A stretch of DNA of 64,000 nucleotides, from the IMG/VR virus record IMGVR_UViG_3300035670_000105, positions 26,163 through 90,162 of that record; one strand, 5' to 3'. Source of the DNA: a virus. The notes beneath the pieces were generated by a model. It was not told the DNA's origin, made no database searches, and was given only the letters and a program-made list of their open reading frames with translations. How positions within the stretch are numbered: the first letter of the stretch is position 1; every line of letters starts with the position of its first letter. Shown in pieces: positions 46,414-50,104 of the stretch. The translations under genes and the position numbers were made by a program.

Positions 46414-47168
46414 TCAGACGGAGTAGATGAAGCTGTGGGCGATGGTGACGAAATCGAGATTCAGATTTTCGAAGCCCGCGAACAGGCTCCAGATGAGAAT
46501 CACATAACGCGAAAAGTCATCATTGCTGTTGATGAGGACTTGCGCATTGTTCCCGCCGACACCAATGCCGATTGCCTGCGGCCCGAAGAACATCGCTGTA
46601 GCAGCTCGGGTGCTCTTCGCGGTGTTGGCCGAGAAGCCCGACGCACCATCAATCGACACCGAATAGTTATATTCGGGGACGTTAGTCGACTCGAAGAAGC
46701 GACACCCCTCAAACAGAAATCCCTGCGGCATCGTTGGCGCTCCGGCTACAAAGCCGGCTTGGCCATAGGCGGGGCCCATTCCCAGGAAATTCGATGCGTT
46801 AGGCGCCATGAATGGCTGCATCGGATTCACCATCCCGTTGCCAGGATAGCGTGCGATCTCCCTGAAATCTTCGTCCTGCCTGAGGTGCATGAGGAAGGCA
46901 GGATCGACCAGTGCTCGATAGTAACCATCCGCAAACGTCGGGACGTTGCGAGCACGCATATCGGTGACGACCTTGAGTAGATCGTTCTTCACCGAGAACT
47001 TGGCCTGGTTCTCATCACCAGCACCGGAGACATCATAGCCAGGTGTTGCCAGACCGGCTTCACTCAGGCCGCCAGGGAAGTAGTAACCACCCTGCTCTTC
47101 ATTGGCTTGACCGCGAGAGTAAGCCTTGTAGAGTTCGTTGATGAACACACGATCGCGCCAGCGGCGGT
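46414..47168 (-). CDS. Major capsid protein, exon 3 (C-terminal part)
   Basis: The last 251 codons of an N4 gp56-type major capsid protein. It includes YYFPGGL, ADGYYRALVDPAFLMHL and GFLFEGCRFFESTNVPE. Next come FFGPQAIGIGVGGNNAQVL and DDFSRYVILIWSLFAGFE. An open frame extends to 47232, but those 21 codons belong to the intron. After splicing, GCC-T from exon 2 joins AC-CGC here to give VVAYRRWRDRVF, keeping the frame. The spliced protein is about 401 residues. It is the shell protein of the head and is followed by a decoration-like gene. Confidence 0.82.
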
Positions 47169-48349
47169 CTACCGAACCCGCTTTGGGAAGCGAGCCGCGG
47201 GGCTCTTTATCCCCGCGTCTACCCTTTGTCATCGAGTAGAGTCAGACTATATCTTCATCCGCTTTCAAGTGCTCGTCCCACTACGCGACCTCGGTATTGA
47301 GGCCATGGAAAGACTCACGGATACGATGAGCGACGCTGAAATCAGCGCTCTCTACGGCCTCACGAGAACCGCTGCTACCCACGCCAGGAAGCAGCTAGGT
47401 GTGAAGTCGTATGCGGAGAAGCACGGCAAGCGTCGCTACCGCGACAGCTACGAGCCAAAGCCCGGTGCCAAGCGTGTCTTCTCCCATCGCCTTTCCGGTG
47501 TTGACGAGCACTACTTCAGTTCCATTGGAACTGAAGACAGGGCCTACTGGCTTGGCTTCTTTCTTGCAGATGGCTGGATCGTCACGGAGAAAGGGACCCC
47601 CACTGGCTTTGCCATCGCCCTGCACGAGCGAGACAAAGAGGCCCTGCAGGACTTACAGAACCGCCTTGGTGGAAGCAACATGCTCCGAAGAACCAGGCCA
47701 GGCAGCAACCTACTGCAACTCAAATTGACCTCAGGCGTAGCTGCGAGACAGCTCATCCTTCACGGGGTCGTCCCCCGAAAGTCAAGAGTCGCCACTCTTC
47801 CCAAGCTATCCGACGAACTGATGCCCCACTTAATCCGGGGCTACTTCGACGGTGACGGGTCTATCAGCGTAAGAGGCGTCACGCTAACTATGGATTTCAC
47901 CTCTGGTAGCAAGGTTTTACTTGACCAGATAAGAGTCCATCTTGAGCGTGTGGCTGGCGTCAAACCAAACCTTACACCTGACCGCGCCTCTTGGAAGTTG
48001 CGTTTTTACGCAGAGAACGCTGTTCGCCTCGGCTGCTATATATATGGGCGTCCAGCCCATAACCTGTTCTGCCTTAGTAGAAAGAAGCAGAAATTCCTGT
48101 CTTATCTTGAAACGGATGCGGGGCACTCGTGGGAGCAATTACTGCCCGTTCTGGGCTCGGCTCCTAGTCGTTGAACCTTCCGTCCTGTTCCCAGGAGGGC
48201 TTGGCTGCTGATTACCCATGCGGCGTGGATCTTTTCAAGCCGTCGCGTCTGCCCTCTCAGGCTCCGCTGTGGCGACCCAGCTTTTTCCCTTGCTGAAGGG
48301 GGAAGGGCTTCCAGCAATTCACCCCGTATTGCCCTGACAGTTACCTGTC
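47169..48349 (-). ncRNA. Group I intron B in the major capsid gene (1181 nt)
   Basis: All core elements are readable on the minus strand. P1 pairs exon GCCT with GGGC, with the splice after T at 48350. P is AATTGCTGGAAGCC (about 48306-48325) and Q is AATCAGCAGCCAAGCC (48199-48218). R is GGTTCAACGACTAGG (about 48160-48180) and S is AAGATATAGTCTGAC (47240-47258). The intron ends in G at 47169. TTGCTG of P pairs with CAGCAG of Q. The region between R and S holds a homing endonuclease gene on the opposite strand. Splicing exactly restores the capsid reading frame. Confidence 0.88.
47305..48174 (+). CDS. LAGLIDADG homing endonuclease, antisense within intron B
   Basis: About 289 residues with two LAGLIDADG motifs: WLGFFLADGW and LIRGYFDGDGSI, each with its acidic residue. 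The N-terminal part (DAEISALYGLTRTAATHARKQLG) is a helix-turn-helix-like DNA-binding addition. The gene lies in the R-S (P8) loop but on the strand opposite to the intron and the capsid gene. Its stop codon falls within the R element at 48172-48174. The ATG at 47305 is one of several possible starts; the frame is open back to 47107. It probably cuts intron-less capsid alleles to spread the intron. Confidence 0.85.
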   Translation: MERLTDTMSDAEISALYGLTRTAATHARKQLGVKSYAEKHGKRRYRDSYEPKPGAKRVFSHRLSGVDEHYFSSIGTEDRAYWLGFFLADGWIVTEKGTPTGFAIALHERDKEALQDLQNRLGGSNMLRRTRPGSNLLQLKLTSGVAARQLILHGVVPRKSRVATLPKLSDELMPHLIRGYFDGDGSISVRGVTLTMDFTSGSKVLLDQIRVHLERVAGVKPNLTPDRASWKLRFYAENAVRLGCYIYGRPAHNLFCLSRKKQKFLSYLETDAGHSWEQLLPVLGSAPSR

Positions 48350-48775
48350 AGGCGACCACCAGCCTTTCGGCCGAGTCATCGAGCAGAGTGAGTGAACCAA
48401 TGCTCTGGTGGAAGACGCCGATGTTGCCAGTATCCAGCAACAGGCGCTGAGCGGTGAGCAGGTTTTCCCGGCTCACCTTGAAGGTGCTGGGCTGATCGGG
48501 CTCCACCGGATCTGCGGGGCCCGTATATTCATGAAGCGTCACCAAGACCTTCTGCTTGGTGATGTTCCGGCTGCTGGCAGTGCCGATGGTTTGATCAGGA
48601 TTCCGCTGACGGGTTTCCTTAGAACCAGGCGCTCCCCAGTAGCTATAACGATCAAGCTGAACTGTCTGTCCTGGCATCTTGCTAAAGTCGTGAACTACGA
48701 CCGGCTCGATTGCCATCTCGGCCACATAAGTGGGGTGCGGCCTATAAAGCTCAGCCCCAAGAATCTTGGGGAAAT
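48350..48775 (-). CDS. Major capsid protein, exon 2 (N-terminal part)
   Basis: Encodes FPKILGAELYRPHPTYVAEM, TVQLDRYSYWGAPGSKE, VLVTLHEYTGPADP and HQSIGSLTLLDDSAERLVVA. Read without splicing it starts with an unconvincing TTG at 48782 and stops right at the intron boundary with TGA. Both oddities are explained by introns on each side. The 5' boundary is placed at 48775, which gives TAT across the junction; an alternative boundary at 48777 with a different exon 1 frame is possible. Confidence 0.78.
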
Positions 48776-49102
48776 CACTCAAGGGATCCCTGGTTTCCCA
48801 GGGGCTTGGACCATCTCATCATCCTCCACCGTTGAGGATGTCGGGCGCTCGTGCTGGTTATTAAGGGGGCTGAACCCCTCCAGTGGCCTCTGCACCTTCC
48901 GGCGGTGTACCGCCGGCTTGGCTCAGGATTACCCGTGCCTGCGCTTCTGAGACGCAAGCACTTTCAGGCACACCAGCGGCAGTGGATGCTGCAGCTGTCG
49001 CTGGTGCTCAGTTGTCAAGGTTCCCAGCTGCTGCTGGTCTGCTCAGAAGTGATGCCGATGGGGCTTCCCTGAATTCACCCGATGCTCACTCGACCGTTGC
49101 CG
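48776..49102 (-). ncRNA. Group I intron A in the major capsid gene (about 327 nt, no ORF)
   Basis: Minus-strand core elements: P1 CTCGAT|C-GGCAAC-GGTCGAG with a U-G pair at the splice site. P is GAATTCAGGGAAGCC (49061-49080) and Q is AATCCTGAGCCAAGC (48916-48935). R is AAGGTGCAGAGGCCACTGG (48880-48900) and S is GATGAGATGGTCCAAG (48806-48822), with a P9 hairpin CCTGG-GAAA-CCAGG. TTCAGG in P pairs with CCTGAG in Q, a covariation relative to intron B. The 3' end is placed after the G at 48776, with 48778 as alternative. Confidence 0.75.
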
Positions 49103-49127
49103 ATCGAGGGGACAGTGTGAGGTTCAC
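49103..49127 (-). CDS. Major capsid protein, exon 1 (start codon exon, tentative)
   Basis: Twenty-five nucleotides from a GTG at 49127 to the predicted 5' splice site of intron A. They encode MNLTLSPR plus one base, which then joins exon 2. The ribosome site is weak (GGA 7 nt upstream), and AGGAGG occurs about 25 nt before. A TTG in another frame (49136) is an alternative start if the intron ends 2 nt earlier. The 5' splice site is better supported than the start codon. Confidence 0.45.
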
Positions 49128-49216
49128 CTATCAATCCACAAAACGGAAAGCGCCTCCTGCGCGAATTCGGTGTGGAGGCAACCGGGGTTGTTCCCGTGTG
49201 CCTTACGGCGGATGGT

Positions 49217-50104
49217 ATGTACCCTTATGCCTGTGTAAGAGCAACTGCAATGGCTGGCACGCCACGGACAATCCTCAACCCCTATGAATCGGCGGCCTTG
49301 ACGCGACTGGTGATGTCCTTCTGTTTGGGCAAGGGCTCGCTCTGCCTGTACAGCCGTTGCTATGTCCTGCAGATCGCCCAACCCAATCGCGCTGGCGACT
49401 ACGCCCACTACCAGTGGCGGCGCATCTGCCAGTTCATTCCGACCGCCAAGGCACCGCGCTTCCATCCCCTCGGGCCCGATGGCGAGGGGGAGGGAGATGA
49501 TCGCGGCCAGTGGCGGCTGCGCATCACCAGCCGCTGGTTTGAGACGGCCTACAACATGCTCTATCCGCTGAGCGGTGCGGATCCCGAGAGTGGCTTTCGG
49601 CCGTTCCGCATCGAGCAGCCGGCGCTGGAGTTGCTCGGCGCAGAGGCCATCGCGTCACTGTGGGCGGATCGCGGCCGCGTCCTGCGCGGCACTGGAGCAC
49701 TCAAGGGCCAGCTGAACCTCAGCCGCATCTCCTTTGAAGAAGCGGATCTACTGGCTGCCTGGATCAGCCGGCTGACGGGTGCCAGCGGTGAAGTGGACCG
49801 CAGCCCCCGCAACGCCAATGCCCCGATGCTTTTCCTGGATCAGGACGATCTGCTGGCGATGCTGCAGGCCTTGCGCCCCACCTGGATGGCGCAGGCTCCC
49901 TGCCTGCTGAGCAAGTTCCAGCCGGAGCTGCCGCCGCCATCGAAGGCAATCCCGCGTCGCTCGCGCCGCCGTCGCCTGGCACTGTCGGCTGCGATCGAAT
50001 CAGGCCCTGCCGGTGTGGCGCCGGTGCCAGCGGAGCGGAAGCGCAACCGGCGCATCCCGGTACAACGGCCGATGCTGCCGCCGCTGCTCAACCAAGCAAG
50101 TTGA
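49217..50104 (+). CDS. LAGLIDADG_2-like putative homing endonuclease, possibly degenerate
   Basis: About 295 residues. LTRLVMSFCLGKGSL, then WRRICQFIP, and in the second half LEQP-type IASLWADRGRVL, LNLSRISFEEADLLAAWIS and LLAMLQALRPTWM, follow the order of LAGLIDADG_2 enzymes. The first motif has Lys where the acidic catalytic residue is expected (GKGSL for GDGSL), so it may be inactive. A basic Pro/Arg tail follows. It is antisense to the late genes, wedged between lysozyme and capsid exon 1, about 90 bp from intron A. The start is uncertain (49217 or 49250). Confidence 0.55.
   Translation: MYPYACVRATAMAGTPRTILNPYESAALTRLVMSFCLGKGSLCLYSRCYVLQIAQPNRAGDYAHYQWRRICQFIPTAKAPRFHPLGPDGEGEGDDRGQWRLRITSRWFETAYNMLYPLSGADPESGFRPFRIEQPALELLGAEAIASLWADRGRVLRGTGALKGQLNLSRISFEEADLLAAWISRLTGASGEVDRSPRNANAPMLFLDQDDLLAMLQALRPTWMAQAPCLLSKFQPELPPPSKAIPRRSRRRRLALSAAIESGPAGVAPVPAERKRNRRIPVQRPMLPPLLNQAS

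Follow-up and report, generated by a model that had tools for sequence, protein, structure and literature searches.

An antisense LAGLIDADG_3 gene in the P8 loop of a group I intron within a cyanophage capsid gene

In the window analysed here, a stretch of 64,000 nucleotides from a virus record of 90,162 bases, the major capsid gene is interrupted by a group I intron (intron B), and the P8 loop of this intron is filled by a LAGLIDADG_3 gene read from the strand opposite to both the ribozyme and the capsid gene. To judge from the sequences, the occurrence of relatives in a dozen further metagenomic phage contigs marks this backward layout as a lasting, selected design and not a one-off. Very likely, intron B is a mobile group I intron of an S-EIV1-type capsid gene, whose antisense gene has a plus-strand transcript of its own, which homes by break repair, and whose cassette has spread together with its introns. 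The features are listed in Table 1.

The source phage is a freshwater-type cyanophage of the S-EIV1 type. Its capsid gene (46.4–49.2 kb, minus strand) matches the major head protein family PHROG 1357, and the phage collection contains a single named relative for it, Synechococcus phage S-EIVl (KJ410740), with 54% protein identity. In the record, the structural genes form a block on the minus strand, and most of the other genes are found further left on the plus strand. The capsid ORF of S-EIVl (L019, KJ410740.1, 4581–5732) is intronless and encodes 383 aa. Its annotation looks wrong: a minus-strand ORF, AHV82227.1, is placed over the first part of the capsid ORF, and only the C-terminal piece is annotated (AHV82228.1).

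The intron, its boundaries and its orientation can be read from the sequence. The Rfam model RF00028 matches positions 48391–47219 on the minus strand with 47.3 bits (E 1.6e-10), slightly below the gathering score of 50 bits, probably because of the 0.9-kb insert; no RF00028 match is found at intron B on the plus strand. When 48374 is joined to 47168, the capsid frame reads LLDD-Y-RRWRDR without a break, as in the intronless S-EIVl and L003, and the intron is therefore assigned to 47169–48373. The preliminary description had given 47169–48349; the lower end stands, and the upper end was 24 nt short. The end of exon 2, GACU, pairs with the intron guide GGUC (P1), with U48374 preceding the 5' splice site, and the intron closes with a terminal G, G47169. 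The P, Q, R and S elements follow in order on the minus strand, with the P3, P4, P6 and P7 pairings.

Eleven introns of this capsid gene family were aligned with the endonuclease genes excised. The alignment supports P3, P4/P5, P6, P6a, P7, P7.1, P7.2, P8 and P9, and the P7 pairing is 5/5 in every intron aligned. Among 51 pairs, 94.6% of the cells are paired and 31 pairs have changes on both sides, a result reached in 0 of 500 shuffles. The covariation score is 0.517; shuffles give 0.167, and slid versions of the structure reach no more than 0.129. The tested structure was derived from the same alignment and is thus favoured over its slid versions, but compensatory changes are numerous nonetheless. 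The core is group IA-like, with P7.1 and P7.2. Since folding energy alone is not decisive on the strand for single sequences, the strand was assigned by covariation, Rfam and splice junctions. All of these place the core on the minus strand with the capsid gene, as first described, including when a better fold on the plus strand is considered as the contrary outcome.

Table 1. Features of the capsid locus in the window and insertion sites of antisense genes in related capsid genes.
Feature	Position	Strand	Evidence or remark
LAGLIDADG_3 homing endonuclease gene (predicted), antisense to intron B and capsid gene	47269..48174	+	Pfam PF14528, PHROG 4645, AlphaFold, Foldseek
Endonuclease C-terminal codons	48113..48171	+	read antisense through P8 5' arm, P3', P7.2, P7.1, P7
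Group I intron B in major capsid gene	47169..48373 (1205 nt)	-	RF00028; junction vs S-EIVl and L003; covarying core
Core element P	48309..48320	-	GAATTGCTGGAA
Core element Q	48203..48216	-	GGTAATCAGCAGCC
Core element R, 5' strand of P7	48165..48176	-	GTTCAACGACTA
Core element S, 3' strand of P7	47245..47255	-	AAGATATAGTC
P8 5' arm	48113..48118	-	CATCCG; P8 covaries
P8 3' arm	47256..47261	-	CGGATG; P8 covaries
Capsid exon 2 (5' exon of intron B)	48374..48782	-	PHROG 1357 major head protein E 0.0013; tblastn 77% to S-EIVl
Capsid exon 3 (3' exon of intron B)	46414..47168	-	PHROG 1357 E 8e-13; spliced translation
Intron A, ORF-less group I, near capsid gene start	48787..49173 (Rfam match span, ends inexact)	-	RF00028 70.6 bits
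Promoter-like match, candidate, upstream of endonuclease	47226..47255	+	TTGTCA-18-TATCTT, sigma-70-like, 9/12 consensus positions
Insertion site	capsid residue 28		antisense genes in L006, L047, L261
Insertion site	capsid residue 136/137		antisense genes in window, L002/L021, L020
Insertion site	capsid residue 141		antisense genes in L010, L011, L264, L265, L266, L022
Insertion site	capsid residue 284		second antisense gene of L047
Insertion site	capsid residue 292		antisense gene in L268

The two P8 arms flank the plus-strand gene, which agrees with its earlier placement between R and S, antisense to the intron and the capsid gene. The ORF matches LAGLIDADG_3 (E 9e-15) and PHROG 4645 (E 1.6e-33). 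Its AlphaFold model (mean pLDDT 84.5) combines two LAGLIDADG units with a helical domain at the N-terminus, and the best fold matches of the model in the PDB by Foldseek are I-Tsp061I, I-AabMI and I-OnuI-type meganucleases. Both acidic motifs, DG and DGDG, are invariant in all 11 intact homologues. The gene product is predicted to be a two-motif LAGLIDADG homing endonuclease. The gene had been delimited as 47305–48174; strand and stop hold, while the start is ambiguous between ATG 47305 and GTG 47269, the latter fitting the homologous N-termini better. The stop codon, TGA at 48172–48174, is indeed inside R as noted before. This is a quirk of the window and was rejected as a general rule, the genes of relatives ending about 47–69 nt before R. 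The end of the encoded protein is predicted to be disordered (residues 291–301, pLDDT 32–47).

When the capsid and endonuclease proteins were used as queries, antisense LAGLIDADG_3 genes turned up in capsid introns of 13 contigs, one of them the window; the 14 copies are distributed over five insertion points in one capsid gene (Table 1). L010/L011 and L264/L265 are near-identical pairs from different metagenomes. Wherever the core can be resolved, the gene occupies the same R-S gap: R precedes and S follows it on the capsid strand in the window, L002/L021, L020, L006, L047, L010, L264, L266 and L022. In L268, the core was not resolved by motif and the antisense orientation is judged from that of the capsid gene. 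L261 has the same core with a broken reading frame, so an antisense gene can decay. Endonuclease homologues at 45% and about 30% identity keep both the orientation and the R-S gap.

Selection on the antisense frame is apparent as well. dN/dS is 0.15 between L020 and L021 and 0.10 between L266 and L022, and the frame is under purifying selection. A chance ORF is ruled out by these values together with the homologues of the same orientation and position. In a tree of 175 relatives (quick method, midpoint root), 10 of the 11 intact antisense genes form one clade with SH-aLRT 98. The second antisense gene of L047 falls outside this clade on a long branch, and may share its origin.

The unusual character of the antisense placement, pointed out in the preliminary description, is evident both within this capsid gene and elsewhere. 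Three LAGLIDADG_2 genes carried by introns of this capsid gene (in L004, L017 and L022) have the sense orientation. Among other LAGLIDADG_3 relatives with an intron located by R and S (36 tree rows), gene and intron are on the same strand and the core is nearly always 3' of the gene, as called by a motif scan that covers only cores of this R/S type and whose calls were not individually hand-checked. For L029, L039 and L093, same-strand introns adjoining the gene are found independently by Rfam. The sense LAGLIDADG_2 genes of L004 (2603–3550) and L017 (2936–3784) lie directly 3' of R, and their frames continue from the intron's 5' portion. The antisense LAGLIDADG_3 genes, in contrast, mostly spare P7.1, P7.2 and P3'.

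Empty alleles and a co-conversion-like divergence of exons are also seen. In L003, the exon 3 protein is 99% identical to that of the window and the intron B site is empty. Upstream (2165 bp) and downstream (1543 bp), the DNA identity of the two is 98.3% and 98.25%, respectively, whereas the 371-bp exon that separates introns A and B has an identity of only 87.9% (Fisher p 3e-20), and this value drops to 70% in an 80-bp stretch just short of the intron B site. Over the aligned stretch of exon 2, the proteins are 100% identical. This divergence would fit the prediction of homing with exon co-conversion, for a tract that is not creditable to intron B alone because the divergent exon sits between two introns. 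Homing appears to be supported by the empty sites and the putatively co-converted exon tract.

The favoured mechanism can be outlined as follows. The ribozyme would excise itself from the late capsid transcript, and the endonuclease would be made from a separate plus-strand transcript, by a route and with a timing that we infer. In co-infections, the enzyme would cut capsid genes that lack the intron, and through repair of the double-strand break these genes would acquire a copy of the intron along with adjoining exon sequence. For the antisense cassette, one or very few origins in this phage lineage are probable; together with its introns, it would then have reached at least five positions within the capsid gene.

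As the preliminary description proposed, the antisense placement might free the expression of the enzyme from late transcription, and it might also disturb splicing. Most plus-strand genes of the phage are found at the left of the record, over 25 kb from the endonuclease, and a separate promoter in or near intron B would therefore be needed. No convincing promoter or ribosome-binding site was found for the endonuclease gene. A sigma-70-like match lies just upstream of it: in the window and L020/L021 it reads TTGTCA, 16–18 nucleotides and then TATATC or TATCTT, whereas L010 has TTGCCA at a similar spacing. This match is the complement of the P9 loop and P7, whose bases are constrained in ORF-less introns too, and it is weak evidence for that reason. 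An antisense promoter as a selected feature was rejected, since the RATGGNAAA-type loop and the P7 strand also occur in introns that are ORF-less or carry sense genes and structure alone explains the bases. It can still be speculated, although it is quite unlikely, that the antisense placement is an adaptation of timing, in which a promoter made up of the sequence complementary to the conserved P9 loop and P7 strand drives early transcription of the gene, until a flood of complementary late capsid pre-mRNA shuts it off. If so, timing would be the answer of this lineage to the conflict between an embedded frame and the splicing of an essential late gene.

The lack of clear expression signals, like the broken frame of L261, would also be expected if the antisense gene were a passenger that is rarely or never expressed, in an intron that is neutral in splicing and spread by ordinary recombination between co-infecting phages. 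This is improbable given the low dN/dS of the antisense frame, the catalytic motifs invariant in every intact gene and the frames intact in nearly all copies at five sites. It could alternatively be considered that the endonuclease gene is of a free-standing type, invaded the intron and drives its own spread, the intron being a neutral harbour and not part of one moving unit. ORF-less introns occur at sites where other loci have the antisense gene (L022 compared with L006 and L047 at residue 28; L017 compared with L047 at residue 284), so gene and intron are separable, and their opposite strands leave them no common transcript. This view is nevertheless unlikely: closely related genes are found at the same site with related intron cores, and the window, L020 and L021 have both site B and the intron B sequence in common. 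That the strand or boundaries of the intron are mis-assigned and the endonuclease is actually sense is hardly conceivable, as the Rfam match and the covariation are on the minus strand, removal of the intron leaves the capsid codon exactly intact and no point speaks in favour of such an error.

Antisense homing genes are known from group I introns of nuclear rDNA, which carry His-Cys genes such as I-DirII (Didymium S956-2) and I-DsqI (D. squamulosum L2066) (PMC9548176, PMC3679873, PMC3073962). As in intron B, the homing gene is in a peripheral loop on the strand opposite to the ribozyme and needs its own transcript. Those systems combine eukaryotic nuclear rDNA, a His-Cys box enzyme, RNA polymerase II, polyadenylation and a spliceosomal intron, whereas intron B combines a phage capsid gene, a LAGLIDADG_3 enzyme, the P8 loop and bacterial transcription. 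Intron B seems to work like this class and is not a member of it, having neither a His-Cys box enzyme nor a nuclear rDNA location.

Phage T4 offers other likenesses. Its td, nrdB and nrdD introns (I-TevI, I-TevII and I-TevIII) are, like intron B, group I introns of protein-coding phage genes with homing endonuclease genes, but these genes are sense and of the GIY-YIG or HNH type (PMC2988022). Embedded promoters and RNA hairpins determine when they are expressed (PMC2988022). The T4 gene segD, by capsid gene 23, resembles the gene of intron B in being antisense to the surrounding capsid genes and in having no identified promoter; unlike it, segD is free-standing between genes, encodes a GIY-YIG enzyme and is outside any intron (PMC2988022). 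The I-PfoP3I intron of the freshwater cyanophage Pf-WMP3 also encodes a homing endonuclease, in this case an HNH nickase in a DNA polymerase gene, and an antisense gene is not described in the parts of that source consulted here (PMC3428280). LAGLIDADG_3 genes of Firmicutes and their phages (for example L101, L120, L150 and L161) have the same endonuclease family beside a group I core as the window, but on the same strand as the intron and 5' of R, not between R and S. The word 'antisense' is absent from the text of a review of bacterial group I introns. No homing gene antisense to its host intron was found described for a phage, or for anything outside eukaryotic nuclear ribosomal DNA, in the open-access literature searched, an absence that is not proof.

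Antisense homing genes in group I introns have hitherto been debated as a puzzle of eukaryotic nuclear rDNA, where differences of polymerase and compartment offer a way out of antisense interference. Their layout, kept at five sites of one essential late phage gene, suggests that it works also where transcription and translation share a compartment. Relatives of Synechococcus phage S-EIV1 provide a tractable system for the question of how the embedded gene and the host ribozyme avoid each other. The same system poses the question of why two endonuclease types in one capsid gene differ so consistently, the one being antisense in every case and the other sense.

The capsid gene of the S-EIV1-type cyanophage lineage is an intron hotspot (L022, L017, L047 and L010). 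About five capsid introns, three of them by Rfam, are present in L022 (0.1–3.9 kb), one with a sense LAGLIDADG_2 gene and one with an antisense LAGLIDADG_3 gene. L017 contains three capsid introns, and L047 has two with antisense genes. A scan of 80 capsid loci is not a basis for intron frequency, as its ranking favours uninterrupted copies. In the window, intron A interrupts the capsid gene after only about four codons and is without an ORF; L004 carries a copy that is 98.5% identical. Divergent from the capsid start is a conserved plus-strand ORF (49172–50104). It has no Pfam hit and its first motif is degenerate (LGKGS), but homologous ORFs at several loci give matches to LAGLIDADG_2 proteins of introns (E about 1e-9). 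This ORF is possibly a free-standing, decayed endonuclease fixed next to the capsid gene.
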